Positions 5,081 to 47,139 of a stretch of DNA of 64,000 bases are shown here, in pieces. Numbering within the stretch: position 1 is the first letter of the stretch; the number at the start of each line of letters is the position of its first letter. The translations under genes were made by a program, and so were the position numbers. The stretch is from Lunularia cruciata. Its lineage: Eukaryota > Streptophyta > Marchantiopsida > Lunulariales > Lunulariaceae. The notes under the pieces were generated by a model, which saw only the letters and a program-made list of their open reading frames with translations, made no database searches and was not told where the DNA came from. The stretch covers positions 37,863,034-37,927,033 of the forward strand of contig OX419762.1 of the NCBI GenBank assembly GCA_948567375.1, read 5' to 3'.

Positions 5081-6560
5081 AGGACCCAGATAAATCACCA
5101 TTGACACTTGAGGAGGTAGAGAGAAGGTTAGCTACCCTCAAGTATGGCCCAAATATTACCAAGGAGGAGAAGGTGAGATTTGAGGAGATTTTCCGCAAGT
5201 TCATCCATGTGTTTGCTTTTAGTTACAAGGACTTGAAGGAAGTCACCTTGGAGGAGCACAAGATAGAGTTGGAATCACATGTAAGACCAATCTACCAAAA
5301 GCAACATTGCAGTAGCCCACCAATATCTTTGGTTGTGAAGGAGGAGATTGATCAGCTCAAGGAGGCTAGATTTATCTTTGAGGTGGAGAATTCAGAATGG
5401 GTATCTCCAATTGTGATTGTGAAGAAAAACAATGGCAAGCTTTGAGTATGTGTGGATTACAAGAAGTTCAATGTTGTTACCAAAAAGGACTACTACACAT
5501 TACCATTCATTGATGAGATCTTGGAGGAGGTTATAGGTCATGAGGGGTATAGTTTTGGAGATGATTATAGTGGATATAACCAAATCAAGATTGCACTAGA
5601 GCATCAACAACTCACCACATTCACCACATCTTGGGGAACTTATGCTTTCAAGGTCATGCCTTTTAAGCTTTGCAATGCTCCAGCCACATTCCAACAATTC
5701 ATGAACAAGGTATTTGAACCTTTCATTGGGAAATTTGTGAGAGACTTCATTGATGACTTTTGTGTCTATGGGAGCAAGGAAAAGCACTTTGAGCACCTAA
5801 TCAAGGTCTTGCAACGCTTGGATGAGGCAAGTGCATCACTCAACCCAAAGAAGTGCATTTTTGGATATGAAAAAGGTCTACTTTTTAGGCACATCATCTC
5901 CAAAGATGGAATAGCAATTGATCCTAAGAAGGTGAGGAAAATCTCAGACCTTCCATTCCCTTCAAGCTTGACAAAGTTACACCAATTCTTGGGGATGGTT
6001 GGGTACTATAGGAGGTTCATCTTCTCATTTTCTAACAAGGTTTATGCATTGACCATCTACATGAAGAAAGGTTTAGATTACATGGCAATTTTAGAAGACA
6101 AGGAGGCTCTCAAAGCTTTTAAGGAGCTCAAGCAATCCCTTGTTGTAGCTCCAATTCTTGTTAAACCTGATTGGAGTAAACCTTTCATCCTCTATATTGA
6201 TGCTTCTAATGTAGCTATAGGATGCACTCTTAGTCAATTAGACCAAGATGGGCATGATCATCCAATAGCTTATGCTAGTAGGAAAATGGTTTCAGCAGAG
6301 AAGAAATACTGTACCATAGAGAGAGAAGGGTTGGCAGTGATCTTTGGTCTTAAGAAGTTTATACACTACTTGATTGCAGGGAAAGCCACCATTGTCACAG
6401 ATCACAAGGCTTTGTAGTACATCTTCAACAAGCCTAATGTGGAAGGAAGACTAGCAAGGTGGATGATACTCTTGTGTGAGTATGACAACACCATTGAAGA
6501 TAGGCCAAGGAGGAAACATGCAAATGAAAATTTGTTATCTAGGACCTATGATCATGATAG
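5081..6560 (+). pseudogene. pol: Element A reverse transcriptase and RNase H
   Basis: RT domain at about 5330-5900 with WVSPIVIVKK, then PFIDEILEEV, YSGYNQIKIA, FKVMPFKLCNAPATFQ and the polymerase-site region FIDDFCVYGS (YxDD-type). The tether and RNase H follow at about 6130-6520 (LYIDASNVAIGCTLSQ, then YCTIEREGLAVIFGLKKF, TDHKAL). It would copy element RNA into DNA. Similarity to element B at 26,010-27,270 (minus) is high throughout. The frame is broken; fossil. Confidence 0.88.
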
Positions 6561-6644
6561 AGATGAACCAATGGATGATTCCTTCCTAGATGAGGAGCTC
6601 ATGACATTCTCAATCACTCAAGAGGTTCCAATGGAGTACAAGGA

Positions 6645-6698
6645 GATTGTGGATTTTGTGACAAGAGGTAGTTACCTCTTGTCACAAAATCCACAATC
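6645..6698. repeat. Hairpin with 26-bp perfect arms inside element A
   Basis: Arms 6645-6670 and 6673-6698 are exact reverse complements around a 2-base centre (gt). Element B carries only the left arm at the equivalent site (25,990-26,040). The right arm therefore appears to be an inverted copy of the adjacent left arm. It sits between the RNase H and integrase parts of element A. Confidence 0.96.
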
Positions 6699-6719
6699 CA
6701 TAAGGGATGCATGCTAGGG

Positions 6720-7974
6720 AGAAGAAGGCCCTTGCAGCAAAGATCTAGACCTTACACAATGGTTTAGGATATTTTTTTTCACCAAGGAGCATATGGTCTA
6801 CTTCAAATAGCAGTGGGTAAGGAAAGAGTCTATACTACTCATCAAGAAGTTTCATGAAGGTTTAGTGTGTGGAGGACACTTTGCAAGAAAGGTGACTGCT
6901 TTCAAGATTCTGGATGTAGGTTACTATTGGAGAGGGATTTTCAAGGATTGTCTTGATTATTGCAAAACTTGTCATGTTTGTCAAGCTTTTGCTAGAAAGT
7001 CTACATCCACTCTACCACTTAGATCAATTCCATTGCTAGAACCTTTTGAGAAGTGGGGAATTGATGTTGTAGGTCCTCTCAATAGAACCCTGAGAAAAAA
7101 TTGGTACATTGTGGTAGTTACTAATTACCTTACCAAGTGGGTTGAGGCTAGACTTTTGAAGGACAAGAATGAAGATGAAGTTGATAGATTTCTTTATGAA
7201 CGCATTATCACTAGGTTTGGATGCCCTTTGGAGTTGGTTTCTGATAGAGGAGGAGATTTTACAGGAAGTATCACTACAACCATGCTATGACATTTCTCTA
7301 TCACACATAGAGTAACTACATCCTATAAGCCAAATTCCAATGGCTTGGCAAAGAGAACCAATCAGACCTTGCGCAGGATGTTGGCCAAAGATGTAGAAAT
7401 AGAGGGGGCTAAACATCATTGGGACAAGAGGATTCATGCGGTTTTGTGGGAATATAAGAACCATGAAGACTTCCACCAAATATTCTCCATTTAAATTAGT
7501 ATATGGTATTGATTCTACCCTACCTATTCACTTTGATCTTTCCTACCTTCCAAAGCATTTGTAGGAGATTGAAGAAAGTACAAGGAGATGATACAAAGAA
7601 GTCAAGGAAGGAACAACTCATGGAGTTGGAAGAGGCAAGAGCAATTGCTATGGTTCAAGTGGAGAAAGCCCAAAGGAAACAAAAGGAGAGATTTGACAAG
7701 AGGCAAGGCAAGAAGAAGGTGGAGCCTTTCAAAGAAGGCAATTGGGTAATGTTGTTTGATTCTATTCAATTCAAGAGAGTGCAAAAAGAGGTTTTGGCCT
7801 AAGTACTTTGAACCTTTCATAGTGGAGAAGGTGTGAGGTAATTATACCTATGATCTCAAGGAGTTGGGAGGAAGACACTTTGATAAGATTTACCATGATA
7901 AATTGAAGATGTATCATAGAAGGTAGAGAGACCTTCACTTTGAGGACAAAGTGAAAACTTAGTCCGGGGGTAAA
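6720..7974 (+). pseudogene. int: Element A integrase
   Basis: The zinc-binding N-terminal domain is at about 6840-7000 (HEGLVCGGHF, then CKTCHVCQ). The catalytic core follows at about 7030-7290 with PFEKWGIDVVGPLNRT, TKWVEA and SDRGGDF, the regions holding the first two acidic residues of the DDE triad. The C-terminal part at 7500-7900 is basic and Lys-rich (KAQRKQKERFDKRQGKKK) and lacks a chromodomain. Just upstream of the LTR, at 7965-7974, ccgggggtaaa is a plausible polypurine tract. Integrase joins cDNA to the chromosome. Broken copy. Confidence 0.85.
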
Positions 7975-8902: not shown

Positions 8903-9513
8903 TGTTGTTAGCATATATACATCACTACAAAAACAAACATCATTGTCAATATTATACACTATAGAAGCACAACTCACACATAAGTCATACATGAATTCTA
9001 AAGTGCCATAATAATAAATTCTTTCTTCTTCTTGAATCACACTCAAATTAGATCTATACTCAATCCTTCACTCGACACTTTACCAACAATCAGGCACTGA
9101 TTAAAATCAAGTCACACCCTCTCTAGCTTTGAGGCTCTAGGTGATGCTCATTAGTCTCTATCTACCATAGTTAGGTACTCAAAAGCTCAACATTAGAGAA
9201 ATGAGCTCTCTTGAGCTGCACTTCAAAGATATACCCCTCTACTCAACCTAGTTCTCCAATCCTAACCGTGTTGCCAATGGTGCAAATGATACAAGTGATA
9301 GTGGGTCCCATTATGTGATCAATAGCCCTAACATAAAATTGGACCACAAACAAGTAGTCTATGAGTAACTACCAAATACCTATGACTACCAACACTACCA
9401 CACCAATGTTTAAACAACCTAAAACAACCTACACAACATACATTTTTGTCAATATCATACACTATAGAAGCACAACTCACACATAAATCATACATGAACT
9501 CTAAAGTACCACA
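8903..9513 (-). repeat. 3' terminal repeat complex of element D (A-B-A)
   Basis: The same layout as in copies C and E: an outer ~105-bp unit (8903 to about 9012), a ~400-bp middle unit (about 9013-9418) and an inner ~95-bp copy of the outer unit (about 9419-9513). Shared words such as catacactatagaagcacaa mark the outer and inner units. The inner unit abuts a purine-rich tract (ctagttagggaggagac on the minus strand). More diverged than in C. Confidence 0.75.
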
Positions 9514-10527
9514 GTCTCCTCCCTAACTAGTGGTTAGGTCCCTCTAACTCTAAATAGCTATATATTCCAAGTATATGATATACCCTATGGTGGGCAAAGA
9601 TCAAGATATTGAGTGCTATCTAGCCCCATTGTTAGTTGCATATTTATAATCTATACCACATAAAGGGTGAAATAGATGTAGGTCAAGTACATCTAGGACA
9701 TAATGACTATCCTTGAGAAACCACCATGAGGGGAGGAGTCAAACATGCCTTATACCATCTTCTCAAACAACTATCACACACCAACATAGTAGTAGCTCCA
9801 CTAGAAGAGCCGCATAACATACACCACAAAAATTACATGTACAAGTGCCAAGCTTGGATCCATAGTGCAATCAATGTTAAGGAGGTGGTATGGTGCACAA
9901 TTGCACACTTGATCCTTCCAAACATCCTTCCAACACAAGGATTCCAAAAGGAAATTACTTGTGCACTCTCAAGATAGTGTGGCCTATAATAACATCAAGT
10001 GTTGTTAGTGTTGTTTGTTGTAGATATACATAGTCACCTGGATGAAATTGATGAATTGACGGTCTAAAACCTGCTCTTGAATGGTAGCACAACGTAAGAT
10101 ATCCTTATGTTGAGCAATTGTTACGTTCTCTTGCCAAGTTCAAAGATTGATGCCAAGCAAAGGCCATTGGCATGACTCTTTGAAAGATCTTTGCCCATTG
10201 AGAATATATACTCACCCATATGTTTAGATCATCCAAGTTCAAAACTATAGTAGCATCTTGATGAATGCTACAGGTAAATTAAATCTCATCCATATAGTAG
10301 AAAGTAAGGAGAGAAGGATGTTAAGAAGGCTTGCCGGTTGAACCAATAGTCAATGACCAAACAAGGTAATTAGAGATACCAATCTCCCATGTGGACTCTT
10401 TGCAAACCATACTTATCCAATCCTTTCTTAACCATCTAAACCACTCTCTCTGCTAAGCCATCTGCCTTAGGGTGATCTTAGGAGGTATATGATGATCAAT
10501 CAAGGCCTTGTCACACAAGACTTGAAA
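9514..10527 (-). pseudogene. Element D integrase C-terminus and PHD-finger region
   Basis: Collinear with 11,182-12,190 of copy C, including the minus-strand stretch that in C encodes the integrase tail and PHD finger (9720-9850). It is diverged, so zinc ligands cannot be read with confidence. It ends at the gaaa target site (10,524-10,527) where copy C is inserted. Confidence 0.7.
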
Positions 10528-11074
10528 TGTTGTGCATATATACATCGCTACACAACATACATCGCTGTCAACATCATACACTATAGAAGCACAACTCAGA
10601 CATAAGTCATACATAGACTCTAAAGTGCCACAATAATCAGATTGCTTAACACTCTCAACTCAACTCAACTCAGATCAATACTTGATTTGTCACTCAATAA
10701 ACTGCCAACAACTGGGCACTGATTACAGTCAAGCCACACCCACTCAAGCATAGAGAATCCAGGTGACGTTCACCGGCCTCTGTCCACCATAGCCAGGAAC
10801 TCAAAGGCTCAACATCAGAGAAGTGAGCTCTCTGGAGCTCACTTCGAAACTATACCCCCTGGACTTGAGCTAGCCCTAACGGTCCTGCTGACGGCACACT
10901 TGACGGTGTGAATGGTGCAAAGTGACGGTGGGCCCCACCGTGAAGTCATTACCCCAAACACCAAATCTGACTGTCTGAAAGTAGTCCCTGAGAAACTGCT
11001 GAAATAACTCTAACTACTATCACTAGAACTCCAGTGTCCGAGCAACTAGATGCGGAACTACAAATGGCGTGACA
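10528..11074 (-). repeat. 3' LTR of element C (units A2 + B)
   Basis: Read on the minus strand it starts TGTCACGCC at 11,074 and ends GCACAACA at 10,528. It has two parts: B (about 10,635-11,074), also present as the 5' terminal repeat at 19,978-20,408, and A2 (10,528-10,632, 105 bp), which the 5' copy lacks. Repeated ctcaa pentamers occur at 10,655-10,672. Confidence 0.8.
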
Positions 11075-11076
11075 GT

Positions 11077-11181
11077 TGTCGTGCGTATATACATCGCTAC
11101 ACAACATACATCGTTGTCAACGTCATACACTATAGAAGCACAACTCACATATAAGTCATACATAGACTCTAAAGTGCCACA
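11077..11181 (-). repeat. Inner A1 unit beside the polypurine tract
   Basis: A 105-bp near-copy of A2 (10,528-10,632), lying between the B unit and a polypurine tract (minus strand gctaggggggcaat). Read on the minus strand it runs from TGTGGCAC to ACGACA, so it too has TG...CA ends. Copies D and E have the same inner unit, so the A-B-A layout is a family trait. Confidence 0.85.
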
Positions 11182-11349
11182 ATTGCCCCCCTAGCTGGCG
11201 GTTAGGTCCCTCTAACTCCAGATAGCCATCTACTCTAAGTATATGGTATACCCTCTAATGGGCAAAGATCAGGAGGCCGGGTGCTATGGAGCCCCATCGT
11301 TAGTTGCCTGTCTGCAGTCTATACCATATAAAGAATGAAGTAGCTATAG

Positions 11350-11485
11350 GTCAAGTACATCTAGGACATAACCACTATCCCTGAGGAACCACCGTGAGGG
11401 GAGGAGTCATACATGCCATATGCCATCCTCTCGAACAGCTATCACACACTAACATAGTAGCAACTCCACCAGAAGAGCCACATAA
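11350..11485 (-). pseudogene. PHD finger at the integrase C-terminus of element C
   Basis: The minus strand reads CMLCGSSGGVATMLVCDSC followed by SRGWHMACM and PPLTVVPQG, and a WLCPRC-like end is in register downstream. The ligand pattern C-x2-C-x11-C-x2-C-x4-H-x2-C, then C-x2-C, and the 'GWH..C...PL..VP.G.W.CP.C' core are typical of PHD zinc fingers, which usually bind the histone H3 tail. It takes the place at the integrase end where chromoviruses keep a chromodomain, so a role in choosing chromatin targets is a fair inference. Copy E has the same finger. Confidence 0.85.
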
Positions 11486-12780
11486 CATACACCTCAAGCC
11501 TGCACGTACAAGTGCCAAGCTTGGGTCCATAGTACCATCAATGTTTGGGAGGTGGCATGGCGCACAATTGCGCACATGATCCTTCCAAACAACACCATCA
11601 TGTCCTTCTAACACAAGGACTCTAGATGGCAAAACCTCGCGCACTCTCAAGATAGTGCGGCCTGTAGAAACATCAAGTGTCGTTGGTGTTGTCTGCTGTA
11701 GATATACATAATTGCCTGGATGAAATAGATGGATCGAGGGTCTATAACCTCCTCCTCGAATGGTAGCATAGCGTAAAGTATCTCTATGCTGAGCAATTGC
11801 CAAGTTCTCAAAGGCCATCGGCATCACTCTCCGGAAGATCTCTACCCGTTGAGAACATGCACTCATCCATACATCGGGGTCATCCAAGTCCAAAACTACA
11901 GTAGCATCTTGACGAATGGCTGTAGGTAAATCTGGATCTCGTCCATAGAGTAGAAAGTATGGAGAGAAGGATGCTAAGGAGGCTTGCCGGCTGAACTGAT
12001 AGCCCATGGCCAACCAAGGTAATTGGAGATCCCAATCTCCCAAGTGGCCTCTCTGCAAACTATACTTTTGCAATCCTCTCTTCACCGTGTGAACCACTCT
12101 CTCTACTAAGCCATCTGCCTCAAGGTGATCTTGGGATGTAGTACGATGATCAATCAAAGCCTTGTCACACAAGACCTGAAACTCTCCCAAGAACTCTGTA
12201 CCCTGATCAGTCAAAACCTCCAGCTGGTGCACCAAACTGACTAAGAACTCCATCCAAGAACGAGTAAGTTGTCCCTTCACTAGACTTGTCAGGAAGTGCC
12301 ACCAACTCAATCCACTTGGAGAAGTGCTCCACCATCACCAAAATGTACCGATGATGTCTCACAGTCAGCGGTAAAGGTCCAGCAAAGTCCAAACTCCAAC
12401 GGTAACCCAATCCCATGATAGGTAATGGGTGTAATTGTGGCGTAGGAGCATTGAATAATGCTCTAACTCGGTCAGAAACCATACATCTGGCAACAAATTG
12501 CTGTACCTTGGTCTGCATACCGTGCCACCAATAATGACTTTGGAGTAAGATATACGTACGCTTTACTCCAAAATGTCCTAGCTCCTCATGAGCATGACGA
12601 ACCAACTGTGGTCTCTGTGCTGGAAGTGGTACTACTTGCACTCTAACATCCTCCCATACACACAAAAGGTGTCTACCCTCCAATCTGAACCGTTTGGCTT
12701 GCTGAAGAACACGGTCTCTCTCCTTGGCCCCAACTGTGCCACCCACAACACCAGTGCAAAGATAGTCCATCACTAAGACA
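11486..12780 (-). pseudogene. int: Element C integrase
   Basis: N-terminal zinc-binding region at about 12,480-12,610 (HAHEELGHFGVKRTY, HYWWHGM). Catalytic core at about 12,180-12,440 with RWSLDFAGPLPL, FSKWIELVALPD and VLTDQGTEFLGEF, and the third acidic region at 12,080-12,170 (HLEADGLVERVVHTVKRGL). The C-terminal barrel is at about 11,640-11,760 (FHPGNYVYLQQ, ILRVREVLPSRVLVLEG). It passes directly into the PHD finger. Fossil copy. Confidence 0.87.
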
Positions 12781-12794
12781 TCATCATGAATGTC

Positions 12795-14260
12795 TCACTG
12801 AACTGTACCGATATCTTCACTCTTTGGATCTGTGACCTCAATAACTCCTCCTATATGCGTTGAGAGAGATACCACCAAAGCCTCAAAAAATATACATAGA
12901 AAGGCAGATACATGCCAACCTGGCACCATCTCCTCATCTGTCTCACCATGCCAACGTGCTCCGGTCTGATCCTGCTGGCTGGGACATGGGTTTCTACTCA
13001 ACCCATCTGCATCATGGTTCACCACTCCAGGTCTATGAACAACCGTGAAATCATACTCCTGTAAAATTAGAACCCATCGTGCAAGCTTCCCTGAAAGCTT
13101 GTCGGACTCCATCAACCACTTCAGCGGCTGATGATCAGTGATGAGAGTGAAGGGGTTACCAAATAGGTAACATCGGAAATGTGCTACTGCCCAAACTGCT
13201 GCCAAGCACTCTCCCTCATATGAACTATACTTTGCCTCCGCTGAATTGTTGGAGCGACTAGCATAGGCCACCACAAACTCCTTCCCCTCATCATCATGCT
13301 GGGTGAGCACCGCTCCAAGCCCCAACATACGCCAATCAGTGTGAACCTAAAATGGTTGTCTCCTGATTGGTCTCCTCAAAATAGGAGCAGATGTCAACCT
13401 CTCCTTGAGCTCTACAAAAGCTCTCTCCTGCTCATCTCCCCAACACCACTCCTGTGTAAGCTTGGTCAGCTTTGGCAAGGCCTTGGCAATGGCACTAAAT
13501 CCTCTAACATAGCGGCGATAGAAGTTTGCCAACCCTAGGAATGCTCACACTCTGCTCACATCCGTAGGCCGAGGAATACGTGCAATAGCCTCCACCTTGG
13601 TTTGCTGGACACCAAGTCCTCCGGGGTAGATAGTGTGACCCAAATACTCAACCTGCTCGTGGAAGAACCTACACTTCCCAGGATGTAATTTGAGTCCATG
13701 AGATCTCAACCTCTCAAACACCTCCAACAACTGTCTCTCATGCTCCTCCACAGTAGTGCTATAAACCAAAATGTCATCAATATAGCACCGAGCAAAATCC
13801 AATCCAGCTAGGATCCTATCCATGACCCTCTGGAACTCAACAGGAGCGTTCTTCAACCCAAATGGTAAGAACCTCCACTGATATAACACATCCTTACCGT
13901 GAGGATCAATAGCCCAAAATGTTGTCTTGGACTTATCCTCCTCCCTAATCAGCAACTGATGATATCCCGCTCAAAGATCCAAAGTACTGAAGACCTTTGC
14001 ATGCCCAATTGCATCAAAAATCTCCTCCGGTGTAGGCATGGTATACCGATCAGACCTGGTCTGTCGGTTGATAGGACGGTAATCTCCACACATCCGCCTA
14101 TTTGTATAGTTGCCATGCATATCCTTCTTGGTTGGCATCATTGTTGCTGATGCATACTCTCCATGTGAAATCTCCACCAAACCAGCCTCAAAAAGGTCAC
14201 TACTACGGCTCTGAATCAATGTCCTCTCCATATCACTATATCAATAACGACGTCATAAAA
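12795..14260 (-). pseudogene. pol: Element C reverse transcriptase and RNase H
   Basis: RT at about 13,540-14,230: RMCGDYRPINRQTRSD, then AKVFSTLDL, FLPFGLKNAPVEFQRVMD, and the polymerase-site motif CYIDDILVYS (YxDD). The connection PTDVSRV..FLGL.NFYRRYV follows. RNase H at about 12,900-13,330: LGLGAVLTQHDDEGKEFVVAYASRS is preceded by the tether, then YSSYEGECLAAVWAV and TDHQPLKWLM. This RT type differs from that of both the Athila-like elements A/B and chromovirus F, so the window has three separate gypsy lineages. Fossil copy. Confidence 0.9.
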
Positions 14261-14755
14261 CTAGTGTGTCGCTAGTTAGCCCAATCCGTATACCAGGTCC
14301 CTTTAGAGCACCCAAATCCTTCATACTGAAGGGAAAACAACTCGTGTAACTCCTCAAGAACCTCCAAACCCTCCGTCTTTCCTCTCCAGTAAGCTTGGGT
14401 CCAAGATTTGGCTCCCAAGTATTCTCTGTAACTGTAGTAGGAGTGGAAGACATATTGACTGACTGCTACATTGGGCCCTTGGGAGCAATAGTGTCATGCT
14501 CCGGACCACTAGAGGTCCCAACCTCAATGTGAAAAACTCCCTCCACTCTGGTTGCAAGCTCCACACGTCCTTTGGCTGCATCCCATGTGGACCAAGGGTG
14601 TAATCCAAGTAGCTCACGCTCACCTGGATGGACTCCAAGTAGACCACTCTCCCTAGTAGCTACTGGATGTGTCCCAAGAATACCCTGTCCACTCGGTCCA
14701 TCACCCCCAACATGTGCCTGAATCGTCTCGATAGGCATAGGGCTCACAAGTGTCC
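14261..14755 (-). pseudogene. Element C linker between methyltransferase and RT
   Basis: No known domain. On the minus strand the peptide contains short imperfect repeats of the form GILGTHPVATR, GLLGVHPGER, LLGLHPWST, spaced about 9-12 residues apart. A proline/threonine-rich stretch and the N-terminal edge of the RT follow. The same linker is readable in E (40,070-40,260, plus) and partly in D (22,445-22,900, minus). It may be a spacer or a processing region. Confidence 0.5.
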
Positions 14756-15750
14756 GAGTGGTGATGCATATCAAGCACATCCTACGCTGCTCTGCCAAGC
14801 CAAGGCTCACAATCCAGGTCAAACAGTTCAGGTCCATAGCCTGACCTAACACCTGACGCCTAGATGCCTCTGACACTGCTGGAACAGCGGTAATACTGGT
14901 GCGAAAACCCATCGCCCGCTCTCTCTCATCAGCATTGGGCTCCACCAATTGCTGTAATTGTGAGTCCCAAACAAGTCCAAGTCCTCCCTCTCAAAAAGCC
15001 TGAGAGCCTGGGAAACTCATGAGTGTGGGAAATGCAGCTCTAGGCTGTCCAACTAGGTTCACCACTGCCATAGGTGACCTATCAGCCACTACCACTGTCT
15101 AAGACTGACATCCAGCATCCAAGACATCATCAACAAGAATGTGGTCTAGTCGCTAAATCCCATCATAACTATGATGTAGAACCTCTCTGGGTAAGAGGTT
15201 CGTCCACCAAAGACAAAGACGATGAGCCCGTGATCCCACTCTGGCTGCATCTAACAATACAGCAGGTCCCATCCATGAATGGACCTGATGTGTACTCGCC
15301 ACCACTCTAGTGCAAGAATCACCCATCAATGGAACTTTCTCCAAAAGGTAAGCTGGAGAAACAGACTGATGAACCTAGAGATGTTGTAGTATCCGTAACA
15401 TCTCCCAAAACACACCAGAACAAGGATCCTGAAGACCCAAACCACGGCCCGCATGTGTATGTCCCTGACATGGCCATCCAAAAATCACCAAGTGAATAGG
15501 CCCATGTCTCTCTAGGTCATGCACCCCTAGTAAGGAAATGTCTCTTGGTAAGGCCTTCTGGTAACCTCTTACTGCTGACATCGATAATAACTCCAGATAC
15601 CGATAGGCCAAGTGTGCCACATGATGTAGAGAGACTCACCTAGCAGTCTCATCTCTCTCTACATACAAGTACCTCTGTACTCATATACTTGCCTGTAACA
15701 CCGTAGCTAGTCCGGTGCTGATCCCACCAAACAACTCCAATAGGCATATC
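14756..15750 (-). pseudogene. DNMT3-like C5-cytosine methyltransferase domain in element C
   Basis: It lies between protease and RT, about 330 codons on the minus strand. Motif I (cofactor binding): LLELFGGISTGLATVL near 15,690-15,745. Motif IV with the catalytic Pro-Cys: GWPCQGHTHAGRGLGLQDP near 15,420-15,480. Motif VI-VIII region: DAARVGSRAHRLCLWW near 15,200-15,260, compare DNMT3 'DAKEVSAAHRARYFWGNLP'. Motif IX-X region: ADERERAMGF, then RRQVLGQAMDLNCLTWI near 14,790-14,940, compare DNMT3 'EMERVFGFP...RQRLLGRSWSVPVI'. The un-rotated order I-IV-VI-VIII-X fits DNMT3 and not DRM, whose motifs are rearranged. The domain would methylate cytosines in DNA. This copy is a fossil; related copies are in D (22,900-23,950) and the start of E. 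Confidence 0.88.
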
Positions 15751-16560
15751 CCCTCTACTAGATACTGCCAAGCAATGAGTGTGGTATCCAGAGGTGTCAA
15801 AGCAATCGCCTCTAGAGGCTCATCCTCACACTCATCTCCTGATGGTACGAAGGCTCCACTCCAAGCCTGCTGCACCAACTGATCTGCATGCTGCTGCAAT
15901 GCCTTCTCTGAACTCCACAATGGAACATCCAAGGTGGATGGAACAATCCCACTTGTACTCCAAAGCCGAGTGATCTCCTCTGGTACTGGAGTATCTTCTG
16001 CATGGGCGTTCCCCTCCAACAAGTCACCAGGCCAAGTAACTGCACCGCTGAAAGCTAAAACTGATGCTGCCATGGTCTCGGACTGTAGTGAGCCAAGACT
16101 GCCACTATTGAAGCGTACTGGTAGGCAACATACCCGTCCCTCACCAGACTGCCAACCAGGTCTATAAGAGGCTGTCTCCTCCCAATAGTCAATGCTGAAA
16201 CCCATAGGGTATAACACTGCTCCCCCAACTAGCACATCATATGACTCAACTATGGTCGCGATAGCCTGAGCTCTCACCACCGAGCTATCAGTCGGATGAC
16301 CAGGCTGAACCTCGACAACAAGCTCTCCACGTGTGATGTACTGTGTCAAACCACCACCTAGAGATGTCTGGATCTGAAATGGACACCTCTCCACATTGGT
16401 CTTCCGTAACTCCAGACCGACAACTGCAGACTTCCCCAACATAAGGGGCTACGCACCCGAGTCTAACAAGGCTCTCTGTGGTGTATAGACCTTCCCTGAA
16501 GGTCCCACCAAACAAAAAATCCCCCTCTGGTTATCCAATAGGACAACACCAGGTGTAAAC
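15751..16560 (-). pseudogene. pro: Element C aspartic protease
   Basis: The retropepsin active-site motif (ALLDSGA) is near 16,450-16,475. It is followed by the flap-to-end region on the minus strand, ending YDVLVGGAVLYPMGFSIDYW near 16,180-16,240, a signature of gypsy proteases. A roughly 120-residue linker, rich in W, E and S, then runs to the methyltransferase. The protease would release the enzymes from the polyprotein. A diverged relative is in the D block 37,953-38,809. Fossil copy. Confidence 0.78.
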
Positions 16561-18540
16561 CGCACTCTCTCAAAGGCCGGTCTAGCTGGCAACTCCTCCA
16601 GTCTAGCCGTTGCTGCCTGCCATAAACCACTGGTTGCTGAACGGATCCCATGCTCCTCAACCAAGTCAGCTCCACTACCAACCACCTCTTCTCTAGTAGT
16701 AGGAACTGCACCATCCCTACTCTCACACAACGTGGCAGCCAACCGGAACACTGGGGCTGGGTCAACTCCCAATGTAAACATGTCACTGGCTGAAAACAAA
16801 GGATGCCGCATAATCAGCTGAGCCGCCTCCAACATCATGCTAGACTCAGTCTGTGTAGTAGCAGGTGGTTGACTAGCAGGTAGTCCATCCTGTACTCCAT
16901 CAACACCTACCACACCTGCACTGGGACATCTAGGAACCATGGATGTCATCTGTAATGCCTCAGATAGCGTGAAAGACTGGGGAAGTCTGACCTGTCTCCC
17001 AACCTCTCCTCTTTGTGGGTCCAACTCCACTGATGCTCCTCTAGGCTCTAGAGCACATACTACACTCCTAGTCACTGCTGCAGATGCATCCACCTGTGCT
17101 GCTCCGCACATGAAGTCCAAAGCATCTCTATCACCAACATATGAGGTGGAAGCCTCAGCACCCGAATCTGATCTCCTCTGAGCAATAGCCATACTAGCCA
17201 ATCTCTGCTCCAACTGCTCAATCCAAGTAGCCATAGCTATGTTAGAAGTAAGGGCAGGTATTGCACCCCTACTAGGTGTAGATCCTCTACCACCACCTCT
17301 ACCACCTCGTCCTCCATGAACTAGAGCTCCTCTACTACCTACCATAGTAGCCCTACCACTCCGTAACTCCGGGTGTAGGTCAAAACATCGGTCACTAGTG
17401 TGACCAAATCTATGGCAATGCTCACACTGCCTTTGTGCTGGCTGTGATGTATCAGAGGTATCAGGTCCGTTGCCCTGAGTACACTCTCTCCTATGGTGAA
17501 GTCCACCACAAGTCCAACAAGCAACACCACCACTCACTGGTTGCTGCTGACCCAAAAATGAGGGTAAGGGTCTAACTCCACTAGGCCCTCCACTCGCTCC
17601 ATAGGATTTGGGCTGTCCACCCTGTCCTTGGAAACCAACTGGGCGTGGTGCACTCTACTGCACTCTAGAAGAAGTCACAATCGTGGATGAGGTCTCTCTA
17701 CCAAATCCAGATGTCACCACTCTCTCCTCCACCATATTGAGCTCAATATGCTTAGCCAAACCAAAGACTACTGCCAAAGTGGGCGAAGTAGCCTACAACA
17801 ACGTAGCATCACAAACTCTATGTTGCAACTCCTTGTCCAGTATCCATACCAAAACTGGACTGCTTGGGCCTCAGTAACTCCTTGAGTGAAACTGATCAGC
17901 CGCCTCATGCGAGTGTATGCCTCGTGTAGGCTATCTCCAGCCTTTCGTTGGAACTCCTACAAGCTCCTCAGCTTGTCAGTCCGCACTCCCTGGTAGTTCT
18001 ACCTCAAACATAGGAAGAACTCAACCATGGGGTTAAACCCCAGTACCACACCACCTCCTACAGCGGTACCTCCACTCGTAGTAGCACTATCTCCAGCTAG
18101 TGCACCTCCACTAGCTCCACCAACGCTACTCGAGCTAGAACTCGTGGGTACAGCTTATCTACTCCTGGCCACTGAGCCTAAAGTGATAAAAACATAGTGT
18201 GGAGACCAATACTGTCTCCATAACTGAATCTCCTCCAAATGAGCTCTCTTGAACTCATGGTAGTCATCCATTGGCGGACCCTCCAGATGCTGGAACAACC
18301 CCTTCCATGCCATGAAGGGTGTGAACAAAGTCGGGTTCCGCATCTGCTGCAGATCACACCAACTATCGAACTCCTGGATGAAGTCATCCAACTCAATGGT
18401 ACCCACTGTACCAGAGTAACACCTAGGGCCTTTGGAGGCCCCATAAATCTCATCCATGTCCCACAACAACGGTGCGGACACACCAAGTGCACTCTCAACT
18501 GAATCAGCTCATGTATCAAACTCCAACTCAAAGTCAATCT
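16561..18540 (-). pseudogene. gag: Element C gag with two zinc knuckles
   Basis: The capsid-like part is at about 17,900-18,480 (ELDDFIQEFDSWCDLQQM, then FMAWKGLFQHLEGPPMDDY). The nucleocapsid part at about 17,395-17,530 has a variant knuckle CWTCGGLHHRREC and a canonical CX2CX4HX4C knuckle CEHCHRFGHTSDRC. A short Gly-Arg patch follows (GGRGGRGGGRGS, near 17,285-17,320), then a Ser/Ala/Pro-rich tail leading to the protease. Gag would coat the element RNA; knuckles and RG patch bind nucleic acid. Fossil copy. Confidence 0.8.
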
Positions 18541-19977
18541 CCTCCCTCACTGGGACTTGAGATACAAGCTGATACCGAGCACCACTCCAAGTAAACCCAT
18601 TGCGTACTGCAGGGCTAACTCCTCTAGAATCTCCAAAGAACTCCGTTGTGACCACGTAATCTGCAACAGCAAACCCACACCACCAACTGCAACCGCAAGT
18701 CGCAACCGCAAGTGTACCACCAAGTGCCAACACCACCACGTGCCAACACCAACTAGACACCACCCACTAATGTAACTCTAACTGAGATAACTACACTAGG
18801 GGAAAGGCAACTTATAACCTGCCATCATAACACGCACTCTCACGGTCTGCAGGTCATCACTTCTTGCCTCACCGGAGAGAAACAAAGGTAGTATAATTGG
18901 TCATCACTCCAGCCTCACCACCGAGAGCACACCAGAGCACCAATGCTCAAAAGTCAGGGCACCTCATACAAACATGGTGCACAAACAAGAAGTAGAGAAT
19001 GGAAGGGATCCAATCACAAGAAATCTAAACGAAAACCCTCCATCTCATAACACAACACGAGACTGACTCTGCCACCATTTGGCATTTGATATAAGAGCAG
19101 TTCGTATCTAAGTCCTAAGCTACCAGGATCACCAAGAATGGGATCAAATTGCCTCTCCTAGCCAAAGCTACATGTGTATAGATAACAGTGGCACAGTCAC
19201 TAGGACAACAAGTGAGGGTGGACCAGTTGGCTAGGGCACCAGTCTAGGAACAAGAGATCTAGGGGTCAAACCCTGTTGCGCACAATCTAGCAAGAAAGGC
19301 AGATTTTGCCAACCAATGACCAAGATCTACTCTAAAGTAGCTAGCCTTATGCTAGCAAGCTGGCTTGCTGGCCCTTCTAGGCCTTCGTAGCCTCTCATAG
19401 CCCACAGCCCTATGCCTTGAAATGCCAAAATTCAGCCAAATGAGGCCTTTCTTGTTGCCACTTCGAAACGTCCTCCAAAATTAGCAAAACTTCTCCAAAT
19501 CTGCGAAAGTCCTCCAAACTAGCAAAACTCCTCCAAATCTGGCCCAAAATCTGATGTAAAATCTGACATAAACCCTAAAGATGACTATCCGCCAAATCCC
19601 CGCTAACTTTCCACTCGTGCCAAATTGACAAAATGGGTTTTTCCAAATCACAATTTCATGAGAAGAGCTTCCCAACTCCACCTTCAATTTCACTTTCTGA
19701 GCCCAACTCGCAGAAAATTGGTCCTGCCTTCACCTCCTGAGCTCAAAATCACAACACTGCTCAAAAATTGCTCCTTCTTTGCTCAAAATTTGGCCAGTGC
19801 TTCCGCACACCGTCCGCCTAATTGCCAAATCCGAATCACTTGAACGAGCTTCTGCACACTAGGGAAACACAGAACTCGATTCGAGCTACCATGATCTACC
19901 GAGCTTGGAGATACCACCAACACTCAACGTTCCTGCACCTGATTTCCCCTTGACTTCACTTCTTTGATGTAATCAGA
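18541..19977 (-). other. Leader of element C
   Basis: Long untranslated leader between gag and the 5' terminal repeat. At 19,062-19,077 the minus strand reads TGGTGGCAGAGTCAGT, close to the initiator-Met primer-binding consensus (TGGTATCAGAGC). It lies about 900 bases inside the terminal repeat that I can delimit, not beside it. At 19,480-19,560 short degenerate repeats (ctccaaa..tagcaaaact) occur. The stretch 18,800-18,900 and the word atccaatcacaagaaa near 19,010 recur in fragment G (44,150-44,340). A tRNA-like block is listed separately. Confidence 0.55.
19217..19283 (+). ncRNA. tRNA-like block (SINE head or tRNA pseudogene)
   Basis: The plus strand contains an A-box-like word (tggaccagttgg, consensus TRGCNNAGYNGG) and a B-box-like word (gggtcaaaccc, consensus GGTTCRANTCC) about 45 bases apart. 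Between them is a tRNA-like D-loop to anticodon-stem stretch (ctagggcaccagtctaggaa). I could not fit a sound anticodon stem or acceptor stem, so it is not a functional tRNA. It may be a captured tRNA-derived sequence in the element leader, opposite to the element's own strand. Confidence 0.4.
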
Positions 19978-20408
19978 TTGCTTAACACTCTCAACTCAAC
20001 TCAACTCAGATCAGTACTTGATCTGTTACTCTATAAATTGCCAACAACTGGGCACTGATTACAGTCAAGCCACACCAACTCAAGCATAGAGAATCCAGGT
20101 GACGCTCGCCGGCCTCTGTCCACCATAGCCAGGAACTCAAAGGCTCAACATCAGAGAAGTGAGCTCTCTGGAGCTCACTTCGAAACTATACCTCCTTGGA
20201 CTTGAGCTAGCACTGAAACCCTAACGGTTCCGCTGACGGCACACTCGACAGTGCAAAGTGACGGTGGGCCCCACCGTGAAGTCAGTACCCCAAACACCAA
20301 ATCTGACTTGGAAAGTAGTCTCTGAGAAACTACTGAAATAACTCTAACTACTATCATTGGAACTATAGTGTCCGAGCAGCTAGATGCGGAATTACAAATG
20401 GCGTGACA
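19978..20408 (-). repeat. 5' terminal repeat of element C (unit B only)
   Basis: On the plus strand it begins TGTAATCAG and ends GGCGTGACA, followed by the gaaa target copy and element D sequence. It matches the B part of the 3' end (10,635-11,074) along its whole length, with the shared ctcaactcaactcaactcag tract. It lacks the 105-bp A unit that flanks B on both sides at the 3' end. Confidence 0.85.
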
Positions 20409-22420
20409 GAAACTACCCCAAGAACTTTGTACCTTGAACAGTCAAAACCTTAGTTGGTGCACCAAAATGACTAAGAATCTAATCCAAGAACAAGTAAACC
20501 ATCCCTTCACTAGATGTGTCAAGAAGTACCACCAACTCAATCCACTTAAAGAAGTGCTCCACCATAACCAAAACATATTGATGATGTCTCACAATCAATG
20601 GTAAAGATCCAAAAAAGTCCAAAATCCAATGGTAACCCAATCCAATGATAGGTAATGGGTGTAATTATGGCATAAAGCATTAAATGATGCTCTAACTCAA
20701 TCACAAACCACACATCTAGCAACAAACTATTATACATTGGTATGCATACCATGCCACCAATAATGACTCTAGAGTAAGCTATATATATATATATATATAT
20801 GCTTACTCTAAAATGTCCTAGCTCCTCATGAGCATGATGGACCAACTATGGACATGGTACTAATTGCACCCTACCATCCTCTTATACACAAAAAAGGTGC
20901 TTGCCTTCCAATCTAAATTGCTTGGCTCATTGATGAACATGGTCTCTTTCCTTGGCACCAATTGTGCCACATACAACACCAATGTGGGTATAATCCATCA
21001 CTAAGACATCATCATGAATGTCTTGTTGAACTATACTTATATCTCTATCTTTTAGATTTGTGATCTCAATAACTCCTCTTGTATGCATTGATAAAGATAC
21101 CACCAAAGCCTCAAAAAATATACTTAAAAAGGTAGATGCATGCCAACCTAGCACCATCTTCTCATATGTCTCACCATGTAATTGTGCTCCAATTTGATCT
21201 TGTTGGCTAGGACATGGGTTTCTACTCAACCCATCTACATCATAGTTCACCACTCGAGGTCTATGAATAATTGTGAAATCATACTCTTGTAAAATTGATG
21301 CTCATCATGCAAGCTTCCTTGAAAGCTTGTTAGTCTCCATCAACTACTTCATTGGTTGGTGATTAATGAAAAGAATGAAGGAGTTACCAAATAGGTAACA
21401 TTGGAAATGTACTATTGCTCATATTATTGCCAAGAACTTTCTCTCATATGAACTATACTTCACCTCCACTAAATCATTAGAAACTAGCATAGGTCACCAC
21501 AAACTCCTTTCCCTCATCATCATGTTGGGTGGGCATTGCTCCAAGCCCTAACATACTCCAATCAATGTGAACTTGGAATGGTAGTCCTCTAATCAATCTC
21601 TTAAGAATCGGGGCAAATATCAACTTGTCCTTGAGTTCTATAAAAGCTCTCTCTTTCTCATCTTCCCAACACTATTCTTATGTAAGCTTGTCAGCTTTAC
21701 CAAGGCCTTGGCAATAGCACTACATCCTTTAGCATAGCAGCAGTAGAAGTTCACCAACCCAAGGAATGCTCGCACTCTACTCACATCTGTAGGCCAAAGA
21801 ATATGTGCAATAGCCTCCACCTTGGTAAGCTAAACACCAAGTCCTCCAAGATAGGTAGTGTGATCTAAATACTCAACCTACTTGTGGAAGAATCTACACT
21901 TCCCATGATATAATTTCAGTCTATGAGATCTCAATCTCTCAAACACCTCCAACAAATGTCTCTCATGCTCTTCCATAGTAGTGCTATAGACCAATGATGT
22001 CAATATAACACCATGCAAAATCCAATCTTACTAGGATCCTATCCATGCCCCTTTGGAACTTAGAAAGAGCATTCTTTAACCCAAAAAGTAAGAACCTCCA
22101 CTGAAATAATACATCTATACCAATGAGGATAAATACCCTAAAATGTTATCTTGGACTAATCCTCCTCCTTGATTGGCAATTTATGATATCCTACTTGAAG
22201 TTCTAAATTATTGAAGATCTTTGTATGCCCAATCATATCAAAGATCTCCTCCTATGTAGGCATGGCATATCAATCAGCCCTAGTCTACCGGTTGATAGGA
22301 ATCTCCACACATTTGTCTATCTATGTAGTTGCCATAAAAATCCTTCTTGGCTATCATCACTATAGTTGAAGCATACTCTCCATGTGAAATCTCTACCAAA
22401 CCAACCTCAAAAAGAACTCT
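20409..22420 (-). pseudogene. Element D integrase, RNase H and reverse transcriptase block
   Basis: Collinear with 12,190-14,250 of copy C. Readable minus-strand signatures include HHAHEELGHF (integrase zinc domain, near 20,820), VNYDVDGLSRNPCPSQQDQ (end of RNase H, near 21,200-21,250) and PTDVSRVRAFLGLVNFY (RT connection, near 21,740-21,800). It is more diverged than copy C and broken in many places. A TA-rich hairpin at 20,770 is listed separately. Confidence 0.82.
20770..20810. repeat. TA-microsatellite hairpin in element D
   Basis: The arms tagagtaagc (20,770-20,779) and gcttactcta (20,801-20,810) are exact reverse complements around a 21-base TA run. At the same place copy C has a shorter imperfect inverted repeat (12,540-12,575: ggagtaag...ctttactcc). 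The hairpin may therefore have grown from a pre-existing dyad, plus TA expansion. Confidence 0.85.
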
Positions 22421-24040
22421 ACTCTAGCTTTGAATCAATACTCTCTACATATCATTATATCTATAGGGATGACAAAAAACTAGTGTATCACTAGTAAGCT
22501 CAATCCAAATATCATGTCCTTTTAGAGCACCTAAACCCTTCATATTGAAGGCAAAACAACTCATGTAGCTTCTCAAGAACCTCCAAACTCTCCATCTTTC
22601 CTCTCTTGTAGGCTTGGGTCTAATATTTGGTTCCCAAGTATCTTTTGTAACTGATGTAGGGTTGGAAGACATATTGACTGGCTGCTACATTGGGCATTGA
22701 GAGAAATAATGTCATGCCTCCAACCATTAGAGTTCATAACCTTAGTGTGGAAAACTCCTTTTGTTATGGCTGCAAGCTCCATACATCCTCTAATTGCATC
22801 CCAAGTAGACCATGTTTACTTAGATAGACCCCAAGTAGACCACTCTCACTATCAGCTACTGGCTATGTCCCATGAATACCTTGCCCACTTGGTCCATTAC
22901 CCCTAGCATGTACCTGAATCATCTTGATAAGCATAGATCTCACAAGTGTTTGAGTGGTGATGACTATCAAGCACATCCTACTCTACCAAGCCAAGGCTCA
23001 CAATCCAAGTCAAATAGTTCAATTCCATAGGTTTACCTAGCATCTAATGCTTGGATGCCTTTGACATTGCTATGATAGTGATAATGTTGATGCAAAAACC
23101 CATCATCTACTCCCTCTCATCAATGTTGGGCTCCACCAACTACTATAACTATGAGTCACAAGTCCAAGACCTCCCTCTCAAAAGCATGGGAGCCTAAGAA
23201 ACTTATAAGTGTGGGTAAAGCAGCTATGGGCTGTCCAGCAAGGTTCACCATTGCCATAGGTTACATATCAACCACTACCACCATCTAAGACTCGCACCAA
23301 ACATCCAAATTGCCATTAACAATAAGGTGGTCTAGTCTCTAAATCCTATCATAAGCACATTGTAGAACCTTTCTAGGTAAGAGGTTCATCCACCAAAGAC
23401 AAAGACAATGAGCTCGTGATCCCACTTTGGTTGCATCCAACAACACAACGGGTCCTATCTAAGAATGAACCTAATGTATACTTGTCACCACCCGGGTGTA
23501 AGAATCACCCATCAAAGGAACATTCTCCAAAATGTAAGCTAGAGAAATGGATTAATGAACCAAGAGACTTCATAATATATGTATTATTTCCCAAAACATA
23601 CCAAAATAAGGATCTTGGAGACCCTAACCTTGGCTAGCACGAGTATGTCCCTAACATGGCCATCCAAAAATCACCAAACAAATAGAACCACATCTCTCTA
23701 AATCTTATGCCCTCATCAAGGAAATGTCTACTAGTAGGATCTTCTAGTAACCCCTAATTATTGACATCAGTAATAACTCAAGACACTGATATGCCAAGTG
23801 TGTCACATGATGTAGAGAGACTTGCTTAGCAATCTCATCTCTCTCTACATATAAGTACTTTTGTACTTGTATATCTACTTGTAATACCATAGCTAGTATA
23901 ATACTAATCTCCCCAAAAAACTCCAATAGACATACTTCCTTTATTGGATATTACCAAGCAATGAGTGTGGTATCCAAAGGTAATAAGGTAATAGACCTTA
24001 GAGGCTCATCTTCACATTGGTCTCTTGGTGGTACAAGGCT
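22421..24040 (-). pseudogene. Element D linker and DNMT3-like methyltransferase block
   Basis: Collinear with 14,260-15,860 of copy C. The motif I neighbourhood is readable near 23,790-23,926 on the minus strand: a FFGEIS-type glycine stretch, then VQKYLYVERDEIAKQVSLHH and LAYQCLELL. The motif IV region with a Gly-Trp-Pro-Cys stretch is near 23,650-23,680, and the VIII-type region near 23,380-23,450. It confirms that the methyltransferase belongs to the family and not just to copy C. The block ends at the element B insertion (ggct target). Fossil. Confidence 0.75.
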
Positions 24041-38809: not shown

Positions 38810-39483
38810 TATAACACCCATTTGTGCATGTGTGTGATATTGTGATATTTAGCTTGCTATTATAAGTACTTGAGAGATATTATTTATATAGAGATAAATT
38901 TATGATTAGCTAAAGTTAATCATAGCTAAGATAGAGAGGACCTTATATTAGAGGAAATGGAAAAGATGAGCACCACTATTTTGGATTCTAGTGTGTTGAC
39001 TTAGTATTATTCCTAGGTGTTTGGCTTTGAGGAAAGAGTTGAGAACTCTTGGGCCCTCAAGCCTTTTTGTTTTGGATTCTTCTATAGTCCAAGGATATCC
39101 CATGTGAAGGAATCCTTGACTTAATGGTTGGGTCAAGATAAGATCATATGCTTAGTGGAATATACCCATGTGGATAGATATTCCTTTATACTTTTTGACT
39201 TTACTTGACTTTTAGCCTAGTAACTTGAGTTACTCCAGTAATAAGTAACTTTGGTGCGTAATTATTTCAGAAGTATATAAACAAGGGGTGAAGATGTACT
39301 CATCATCCTTCCATTTGCAACTATCTCTCTCATTGAATTCTCTAGTGAACAATGTCTTGAGTCTTGGAGTGTTAGCCTTGGAGGAGTATGATAGAGTTGG
39401 AGTTCTTTGCCTTCTTACTCCATGGTGCACTACCATAATAGCCATCAAAGGTTCATCTTGAGTGAGAGACAAGCTTGCTCATA
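38810..39483 (+). repeat. Lone Athila-like LTR H at a D/E junction
   Basis: It starts TATAACACCC and ends TTGCTCATA, the diverged counterparts of TGTAACACCC and GGCTCACA. It is full length with a TATA box near 39,275. The flanks (gtaggaac on the left, gtacacatt on the right) are different parts of two oppositely oriented methyltransferase-type copies and show no target duplication. It is thus not a simple solo LTR but marks a rearrangement. Confidence 0.85.
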
Positions 39484-40270
39484 GTACACATTAGGTCCAT
39501 TCTTGGTTGGGACCTATCGTGTTATTAGATGTAGCCAAAGTGGGATCATGGACTCATAGTCTTCATCTTTGGTGGATGAACCTCTTACCTAGAGAGGTTC
39601 TACATTGTGCTTATGACAGGATTCAACAACTAGACCATATCATTGTTGATGACATCTTGGATGTTGGGCGTTAGCCTCAAATGGTGGTAGTGGCTAATAG
39701 ATCACCTATGGCATTGGTGAACCTAGTTGGACAGTCTAGAGCCACTTTTCCCACACTTATGAGCTTCTCCTACCCCCATGCTTTTCAAGAGGGAGGCCTT
39801 GGACTGGTTTGGGACTAATAGTTATAACAATTGGTGGAGCCCAACATCGATGAGAGAGAGCGGGTAATGAATTTTTGCACCGGTATTACCATTGTTCCAA
39901 AAGTGTCAGAGGCATCAAGGCATCAAGTGTTAGATCAGGCTATGGACTTGAATTGTTTGACCTAGATTGTGAGCCTTGGTTTGGCAGAGCATCATAGGAT
40001 GTACTTGATAGGCATCAACACTCGGACACTTGTGAGTGTTGTGCCTATCAAGACAATTCAGGCACATGCTAAGGACAATGGGCCAAGGAGGCATGGTATT
40101 CTTGGGACACAGCCAGTGGCTACTAGGGAGAGTGGTCTACTTGGATTTTATCTAGGTGAGCATGGACTACTTGGGATGCAACTAGAGGACATATGGAGCT
40201 TGCAGCTAGATCAGAAGGAGCTTTTCACACTAAGGTTGGGACCTCTAGTGGTTAGGAGCATTACACTATT
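39484..40270 (+). pseudogene. Element E methyltransferase tail and linker
   Basis: Matches 14,490-15,300 of copy C. The motif VIII-type region is near 39,510-39,600 and the IX-X region near 39,845-40,000 (ERER..., VSEASRHQVLDQAMDLNCL). The linker repeats GILGTQPVATR, GLLGFYLGEH and LLGMQL (40,100-40,185) follow. Together with C and D it shows the domain in three copies. Confidence 0.75.
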
Positions 40271-43870: not shown

Positions 43871-43977
43871 TGTACGTGTAAGCTTTCAGTGTATGTTATG
43901 CGGCTCTTCTAGTGGAGCTGCTATTATGTTAGTGTGTGATAGTTGTTCTAGAGGATGGCATATGGCGTGTATGACTC

Positions 43978-46211: not shown

Positions 46212-46267
46212 GACATCATCCCCTCATGGTGGTTCCTCAAGGACAGTGGTTATGTCCTAGATGTACT

Positions 46268-47089: not shown

Positions 47090-47139
47090 TCCTAGCTTGA
47101 CCGTTCATTAGGGCATTCCAACTCGCACCAACTTTTTTC

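Follow-up and report, generated by a model that had tools for sequence, protein, structure and literature searches.

A DNMT3-type cytosine methyltransferase domain in an abundant Ty3/Gypsy retrotransposon family of the liverwort Lunularia cruciata, with a candidate readthrough stop and split terminal repeats

The window analyzed here, a stretch of 64,000 nucleotides from the liverwort Lunularia cruciata, contains a Ty3/Gypsy retrotransposon, denoted element C, with an unusual segment between the protease and the reverse transcriptase (RT). Plants silence transposons by cytosine methylation, yet the abundant family to which this element belongs, present at more than 1,000 sites, itself appears to encode a methyltransferase of the de novo type. 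The locus raises the question of whether the domain is what it seems, where it comes from and what a retrotransposon could do with it.

An earlier note, made from the letters alone, had claimed an un-rotated DNMT3-like methyltransferase between the protease and RT of a Ty3/Gypsy element, and the motifs, the profile matches and the closest structures all agree with this assignment. The motifs LFGGISTGL, GWPCQG..GLQDP, DAARVGSRAHR..WWTNL and ERERAMGF..RRQVLGQAMDL are found where the note had placed them, in one minus-strand frame, and their order I-IV-VI-VIII-IX-X is un-rotated, as in DNMT3, both in the window copy and in L009, a copy of the same family with an open ORF1; neither shows the rotated order of the DRM family. 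Motif VI reads EKV in the window copy and ENV in L009. A profile built from relatives of the element matches positions 14,805-15,752 over profile positions 1-308 with 344 bits. In the window copy, six in-frame stops interrupt the methyltransferase, and this copy is not among the 123 places scored in a whole-genome Pfam search. The Pfam check that the note had called for, made on the stop-free piece of 86 residues (15,378-15,635), gives a match to DNA_methylase (PF00145) that passes the cut-off narrowly (22.7 bits, cut-off 22, E 7.9e-5), and the same piece has no convincing match in PDB (best, HaeIII methylase, E 0.089). The L009 domain (433 residues) is closest in PDB to DNMT3A (E 2.7e-11), followed by DNMT3B and, far behind, by HaeIII (0.00094), DRM2 (0.021), HhaI and Dnmt2; no DNMT1 or CMT appears by name among its 52 PDB matches. 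General profiles reach only the middle of the domain: in L009 ORF1, PF00145 scores 31 bits at residues 1068-1149, and NCBIfam dcm scores 28 bits, far under its cut-off of 100. Judged by its sequence, the window segment is a DNMT3-type cytosine-5 methyltransferase (DNMT) domain in a decayed copy.

The remaining coding parts of element C (Table 1) follow the Ty3/Gypsy order, with a PHD finger at the integrase C-terminus and, behind the DNMT, a UAG stop in a tobacco mosaic virus (TMV)-type readthrough context. Element C is almost certainly a decayed copy of a large, recently active liverwort Ty3/Gypsy family that carries its DNMT3-type domain between protease and RT. In another family copy, the sequences that flank element C adjoin each other, overlapping by 4 bp. 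The Gag assignment is helped little by Pfam (Retrotrans_gag E 0.07 in L009), and Pfam protease matches are found only in relatives, for example P0056. The element is not a chromovirus, as the integrase of L014 has no Pfam chromodomain and has the PHD finger in its place.

Table 1. Features of element C and of the DNMT regions of two older family copies in the window
Feature	Position	Strand	Basis
Element C, whole insertion, 9,881 bp	10528..20408	-	repeats, ends, target site duplication
Right target site duplication, 4 bp, GAAA on +	20409..20412	.	sequence
5' end of element C, TGTCACGCC	20,408	-	repeats, ends, target site duplication
Repeat A1	19971..20408	-	repeat comparison
TCACTTCTCTGATGT in A1, proposed RNA 5' end and self-primer	20148..20162	-	sequence
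Proposed primer-binding site (PBS) adjoining A1, complementary to the self-primer (1 mismatch in element C, exact in L009)	19956..19970	-	sequence
Gag region with two Cys/His knuckle-like motifs, broken	16449..18481	-	motifs by eye
Aspartic protease region (DSGA), approximate limits	15753..16480	-	motif by eye
DNMT3-type cytosine-5 methyltransferase, broken	14805..15752	-	family profile, Pfam, PDB match of L009
UAG stop closing the Gag-protease-DNMT frame	14466..14468	-	sequence
CAGUCA hexamer next to the UAG, matching CAR YYA of type I readthrough	14460..14465	-	consensus (PMC3542737, available text)
Reverse transcriptase	13482..14228	-	Pfam and profile
RNase H region	12795..13328	-	PF17917
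DDE integrase, broken, two overlapping profile matches	11801..12602	-	Pfam and profile
PHD finger, integrase C-terminus	11357..11494	-	PF00628 in window piece and L014
Purine-rich AGGGGGGCAA directly before B1, proposed polypurine tract	11183..11192	-	sequence
Repeat B1	11077..11182	-	repeat comparison
2-nt spacer from B1 (..CA) to A2 (TG..)	11075..11076	-	repeat comparison
Repeat A2	10635..11074	-	repeat comparison
Putative U5/U3 joint, single A between A2 and B2	10634..10634	-	repeat comparison
Repeat B2	10528..10633	-	repeat comparison
3' end of element C, CACAACA	10,528	-	repeats, ends, target site duplication
Left target site duplication, 4 bp, GAAA on +	10524..10527	.	sequence
DNMT of older copy, taken as the insertion site of element C	22996..23938	-	family profile, flank comparison
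DNMT (part) of third, older copy	39447..39974	+	family profile

Besides element C, the family profile identifies two older DNMT-bearing copies in the window. The halves of one of them flank element C (8,906-10,523 and 20,413-24,000, minus strand), so that element C seems to have inserted there. The other (39,447-47,090, plus strand) retains RT, integrase and PHD finger and has B-A-B repeats of its own at the 3' end; inside it, position 41,308 carries a repeat that recurs at 24,041 and 37,273. Ty3/Gypsy elements with no DNMT match are located at 5,326-7,488 (plus), 25,104-26,981 (minus) and 31,011-33,162 (plus).

The search for further copies in the host genome (566 Mb, 74 contigs) that the earlier note had recommended shows that they are numerous, with exact shared junction sequences at more than 1,000 sites. 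The exact-pattern counts, all of them floors, are 1,020 DNMT/RT junctions with TAG, 1,074 A2/B2 joints and 659 joints between B and A. When the DNMT protein of one copy was used as the query, 114 of 13,983 first-look candidates were scored, which is a lower bound; all are 96-100% identical to the query, 113 cover it completely, and some have internal stops. Unbroken ORF1 (1,428 codons) is present in L009 and L010 and unbroken ORF2 (1,037 codons) in L013 and L014, and none of the 20 loci examined has both at full length. Within a copy, A1 and A2 have a median identity of 97.8% (range 90.2-99.8% in 17 copies), which indicates that many insertions are young. At the 3' end of one locus (L017:677-860) there is a single B and no A2 could be found, the state expected if recombination had removed A2 and one B. 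The DNMT is under purifying selection, with pN/pS of 0.39 among 24 copies compared with 0.68 after random relocation of these differences, in a comparison where pairs are non-independent and most copies were chosen for open frames; on the same terms, pN/pS is 0.23 for RT (20 copies), 0.25 for Gag (19) and 0.46 for integrase (19), the relocated differences giving 0.65-0.68 across the four domains.

With regard to expression, ORF1 encodes Gag, knuckles, protease and DNMT and closes at a UAG, after which the same frame, open in L014, continues into RT, RNase H, integrase and PHD finger. In the loci examined and the window, all 26 junctions read TAG CAG and 25 of the 26 fit CAR YYA. Genome-wide, when the codon is left free and the hexamer fixed, TAG is found in 97 of the 100 listed junctions out of 745 (TAA in 2, TTG in 1); when TAG is fixed and the hexamer left free, CAR YYA follows in 92 of the 100 listed out of 1,020. 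UAG followed by CAR YYA is the type I, or TMV-type, readthrough context, described as the consensus of tobamoviruses in the available text of PMC3542737. Because young copies share the UAG and the hexamer by descent, their constancy within this genome is nearer to one observation than to a thousand and by itself proves little; the argument for readthrough is carried by the match of the context and by the open frame behind the stop. Among relatives, P0056 and P0035 lack a stop at the DNMT/RT boundary and P0056 has the whole series in one frame, suggesting that the stop is a feature of some branches only. We consider it probable, from the sequence context, that the UAG after the DNMT is read through. 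Given its location on the Gag-protease side of such a stop, the DNMT should be made at the level of Gag, above that of RT.

The ends of the element were compared in 17 copies, namely 16 of the 20 loci and the window copy (L010, L016, L017 and L026 were excluded, for example because an end is missing or altered). In all 17, A1 begins with TGTCAC, the last B ends in CA, and B is located on both sides of A2. An exact 4-bp target site duplication lies outside A1 and B2 in 14 copies; there is no clean duplication in L013, L020 and L021, and the flanks of L013 and L020 lie within the family and are non-contiguous, which fits recombination. Four of the 17 insertions are cleanly inside another copy, with contiguous flanks, the 4-bp overlap being directly visible in three; in a family this abundant some such nesting will occur by chance, and we draw no conclusion from it on targeting. 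In L009, ACATCAGAGAAGTGA, which adjoins A1, is the exact complement of the 15-nt self-primer candidate at position 257 of A, 28 bases 3' of a TATA motif. We infer that the RNA, with its 5' end predicted at this point, would prime itself at the 15-nt site adjoining A1, as proposed for Tf1-type elements. There is no sign of priming by tRNA, since TGG is absent from the 40 nt that follow A1 in L009. At the other end, AGGGGGGCGA or a near copy of it precedes B1.

In the sense of reverse transcription, the long terminal repeat (LTR) looks like B-NN-A, and the genomic order A1-ORFs-B1-NN-A2-B2 looks like a two-LTR circle opened at B/NN/A. If the LTR is indeed B-NN-A, the A2/B2 joint is where the end of U5 meets the start of U3. 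Among the 100 listed A2/B2 joints of 1,074, a single A is found in 88, GA in 4, AA in 3, TA in 3 and ACATCA, which corresponds to bases of the PBS, in 2; in the control joint B/NN/A, the spacer is 2 nt long in all 100 listed of 659. In the genome-wide listing this spacer is mostly GC and often AC, GT or AT, variants that fit the decay of the CHG site ACAGCTGT. When 13 variant-joint copies (12 picked for their joints, and L021) were compared with 16 common-joint copies, there was no clustering by joint type (13 changes, shuffled mean 12.5) on a copy tree that is star-like, with little resolution and one well-supported branch, and that includes one oddly built copy (L059) without the usual sequence before B1. 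The median difference between B1 and B2 is 0.9% inside a copy and 2.8% from copy to copy (15 copies, 120 pairs). The joint data suggest that the U5/U3 joint is probably made anew at each cycle.

For both the stop and the joint, other explanations have to be considered. RT could be made from a spliced RNA or from an internal start, with no readthrough of the stop; indeed, gene models of Marchantia and Sphagnum (P0005, P0034) pass from DNMT to RT without the stretch around the stop, which we take for predicted introns. The readthrough hexamer, the open frame after the UAG and the retention of TAG in almost all free-codon junctions listed, and also in the third, older copy of the window, make this alternative improbable. 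The split repeats, in turn, could be copied in the manner of DIRS and PAT elements, with an RNA running from A1 into B2 and the inner B1-A2 template restoring the ends, so that no end-joined molecule is formed. The A1-B1-A2-B2 layout matches that of PAT elements as described in the accessible part of PMC4157794, and one joint is common to most of those listed. This scheme, which we regard as unlikely although less so than the splicing alternative, is opposed by the location of the joint at the expected end of U5 (the PBS) and start of U3 (the purine tract), and by joint variants that carry PBS bases or a single additional base and are dispersed across the tree of copies. The tyrosine recombinase of DIRS-like elements is missing as well: no Pfam family of this kind is matched in L009 ORF1 or L014 ORF2, and the DDE integrase and the 4-bp duplications likewise place the family outside the DIRS, PAT and Ngaro groups.

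The origin of the DNMT was addressed with a tree of 67 domains (quick method, midpoint root), in which a single clade (SH-aLRT 100) unites the 43 retroelement DNMTs and is distinct from the 10 plant DNMT3s (SH-aLRT 99) and 14 other DNMT3-like proteins. The DNMT of the family is accordingly not a member of the plant DNMT3s, which combine the methyltransferase with DUF3444. Within the retroelement clade, 22 elements with the DNMT between RNase H and integrase make up one side of a branch (96), three of them known only as DNMT-integrase pieces and others only as RT-DNMT pieces, and most of the remainder are the 20 with the DNMT before RT, several of which are ORFs ending behind the DNMT. The RT (31 sequences) and integrase (30) trees, which carry a long-branch warning and in which P0055 and P0070 are uncertain, recover this division as well, and in the RT tree both groups are distinct from two Gypsy elements without a DNMT in this genome. 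As the three trees agree, DNMT and polymerase appear to have been passed on together, and the DNMT seems, by its position in the two groups, to have changed place within the polyprotein. The named hosts among the matches listed are Marchantia, Sphagnum, Cymbomonas and Monoraphidium, with Marchantia providing the closest named retroelement proteins. Scans of viral contigs with P0015 and P0041 yielded no relative that would point to viral carriage. The host's own DNMT3 (L001/L048) shares 59% identity with a protein of Marchantia paleacea, 58% with MpDNMT3b and 49-56% with five proteins of Riccia. The genome appears to have a second DNMT3-like gene (L004, G000:C1:51668693-51668857); by eye, L002 looks DRM-like, with rotated motif order, and L003 looks like a CMT.

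The precedents mentioned in the earlier note, in a charophyte and in dinoflagellates, are real: the available text of PMC5890265 describes KnitGypsy-Dnmt3 in the former and retroelement DNMTs in the latter. Whether the liverwort case is related to them or separate, which the note had left undecided, is answered in part: the collected retroelement DNMT3s are one clade distinct from the host DNMT3, a clade defined without the Klebsormidium sequence, no protein so named being among the matches listed.

Substitution patterns show that family copies have been methylated: in pairwise comparisons of DNMT and RT, C-to-T differences affect 2,727 of 48,086 CG sites (5.7%), 3,998 of 85,986 CHG sites (4.6%) and 3,561 of 277,490 CHH sites (1.3%). 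Element C and the remainder of the window both have a CpG observed/expected ratio of 0.39; the ratio is 0.07 for the right half of the older copy beside element C and 0.05 for the non-DNMT Gypsy element at 5,326-7,488. The latter being as CpG-poor as the old DNMT-bearing copy, methylation is not special to the DNMT family; other elements of this genome are probably methylated too, and the CG/CHG decay can be wholly the work of host methylation.

Taking these observations together, we propose a life cycle that, as a whole, we consider the best explanation, with a probability of about 0.6. The main translation product would be Gag-protease-DNMT, with a minority of ribosomes passing the UAG and adding RT-RNase H-integrase-PHD, which would result in a particle rich in DNMT and poor in RT. 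Such particles would reverse transcribe the self-primed RNA, and the DNMT would methylate either the double-stranded cDNA inside the particle or the freshly inserted element; each copy would thereby arrive bearing the host's own silencing mark, which the host would then maintain. The PHD finger may direct integration to chromatin in which the H3 tail is unmodified. The ends of the finished cDNA would be joined (U5/U3), and the integrase would cut and insert at CA-NN-TG inside the LTR, producing the order A1-ORFs-B1-A2-B2. To our knowledge, textbook LTR elements and retroviruses integrate linear cDNA only. For the individual steps, we put methylation of the family's own DNA, which we regard as the best explanation, at even odds. 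The PHD finger resembles those of CHD4, KMT2, KDM5, BAZ2, UHRF1 and ATXR5, several of which read unmodified H3K4; by analogy, there is an equal chance that it reads H3K4me0, and insertions would then be aimed at silent chromatin. The full combination, that is, a self-methylating retrotransposon that provides DNMT at the dose of a capsid protein through a leaky UAG and whose DDE integrase inserts end-joined cDNA at CA-NN-TG inside the LTR, leaving permuted two-LTR circles as genomic copies, is put forward tentatively, at somewhat less than even odds. As to the benefit, we can only conjecture that self-marking hides the cDNA as self or spares the host harm; similar ideas have been voiced already (PMC5890265, available text).

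Two further alternatives concern the DNMT itself, its source and its role. A recent capture of a host DNMT3 by a single Gypsy family, independent of that in algae, has a possible source in the DUF3444-containing DNMT3 of this host; the grouping of the latter with the plant DNMT3s, the separate clade of the 43 retroelement DNMTs and the coincident grouping of the same elements by RT and integrase render such a capture very improbable and suggest an old passenger of these elements. Alternatively, the DNMT could be kept for a role other than DNA methylation, such as particle assembly, nucleic acid binding or RNA methylation. In 15 of 43 aligned retroelement DNMTs, Glu replaces Pro in motif IV (GWECQ type) and the catalytic Cys is retained, a substitution that is unusual among C5 methyltransferases. 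Moreover, no methylation by the Klebsormidium DNMT was seen in yeast, in a test that the authors call inconclusive (PMC5890265, available text). Against such a role, the catalytic Cys, the motif VI Glu and the motif VIII Asp are present in 43 of 43 of these proteins and the motif VIII Arg in 42, and DNMTs of dinoflagellate DIRS elements methylate CG in yeast, as stated in the same source. All told, a different role appears unlikely.

What is already known, from the part of PMC5890265 available, is a Gypsy element of Klebsormidium that has DIRS-like repeats and carries a DNMT3; the element, assigned to Gypsy there, is called LTR Copia in the consulted part of a 2025 paper (PMC12344493). In the literature searched, with most subscription papers and all bioRxiv preprints outside reach, PMC5890265 was the only paper found on a DNMT in a Gypsy element, and no DNMT-bearing Gypsy in liverworts, PHD finger on a Gypsy integrase or Gypsy inserting as an opened circle was recognized. 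As far as these searches go, the new findings are the occurrence in a liverwort at more than 1,000 sites with close kin in Marchantia and Sphagnum gene models, the Gag-side DNMT before a candidate readthrough stop, the integrase PHD finger, the putative self-priming site and the evidence pointing to an end-joined intermediate. The genome of L. cruciata is reported to have grown by Ty3/Gypsy bursts (PMC9985172, available text). Methylase-encoding transposons have been stated to be absent from land plants such as tracheophytes (PMC6338049, available text); contrary to this statement, such elements occur in the genome of a liverwort and among the gene models of Marchantia and Sphagnum. The split-repeat anatomy allows one to ask whether an integrase can use end-joined cDNA. 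Marchantia is genetically tractable and, with close kin of the family there, self-marking of copies becomes directly testable.

The nearest described relative, compared by description, is KnitGypsy-Dnmt3 of Klebsormidium nitens. Going by the accessible text of PMC5890265, it shares with the Lunularia family an un-rotated, intronless DNMT3 inside a Gypsy polyprotein, a DNMT under purifying selection and a DIRS-like repeat layout combined with Gypsy domains. The algal DNMT is described in the Pol ORF, whereas in Lunularia it is located between protease and RT, in the Gag-protease frame before the UAG; the algal element has fewer copies, compared with more than 1,000 junction sites in this land plant, and the available description makes no mention of a PHD finger. 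Close in sequence are 14 gene models of Marchantia polymorpha (P0001, P0003-P0010, P0012, P0013, P0028, P0031, P0033), with DNMTs 59-73% identical, and one of Sphagnum fallax (P0034, 48%). They are deposited as hypothetical proteins, no element having been found described in the literature, and P0001 has the same Gag-protease-DNMT order as the Lunularia family. Mostly metagenomic elements (P0036-P0043, P0045, P0049 and others) belong to the same DNMT clade and share the integrase and PHD finger, but their order is RT-RNase H-DNMT-integrase-PHD, with the DNMT after RNase H instead of before RT. In five of them (P0038, P0040, P0041, P0043, P0049), a shared region with a DPWAG motif follows the PHD finger, perhaps another methyltransferase-like domain.

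Individual features have parallels elsewhere. In Tf1 and Tj1, the PBS is complementary to a stretch of the 5' repeat, as is the proposed PBS of the Lunularia family, and the stop at the end of gag in Tj1 is comparable to the stop found here; unlike the Lunularia family, these elements have ordinary LTRs, and DNMT or PHD finger are unmentioned in the text available (PMC4600332). Finally, PAT and Ngaro elements of the DIRS order share the A1-B1-A2-B2 split direct repeats but carry a tyrosine recombinase (PMC4157794, available text), whereas the Lunularia family combines this layout with a DDE integrase and 4-bp target duplications.
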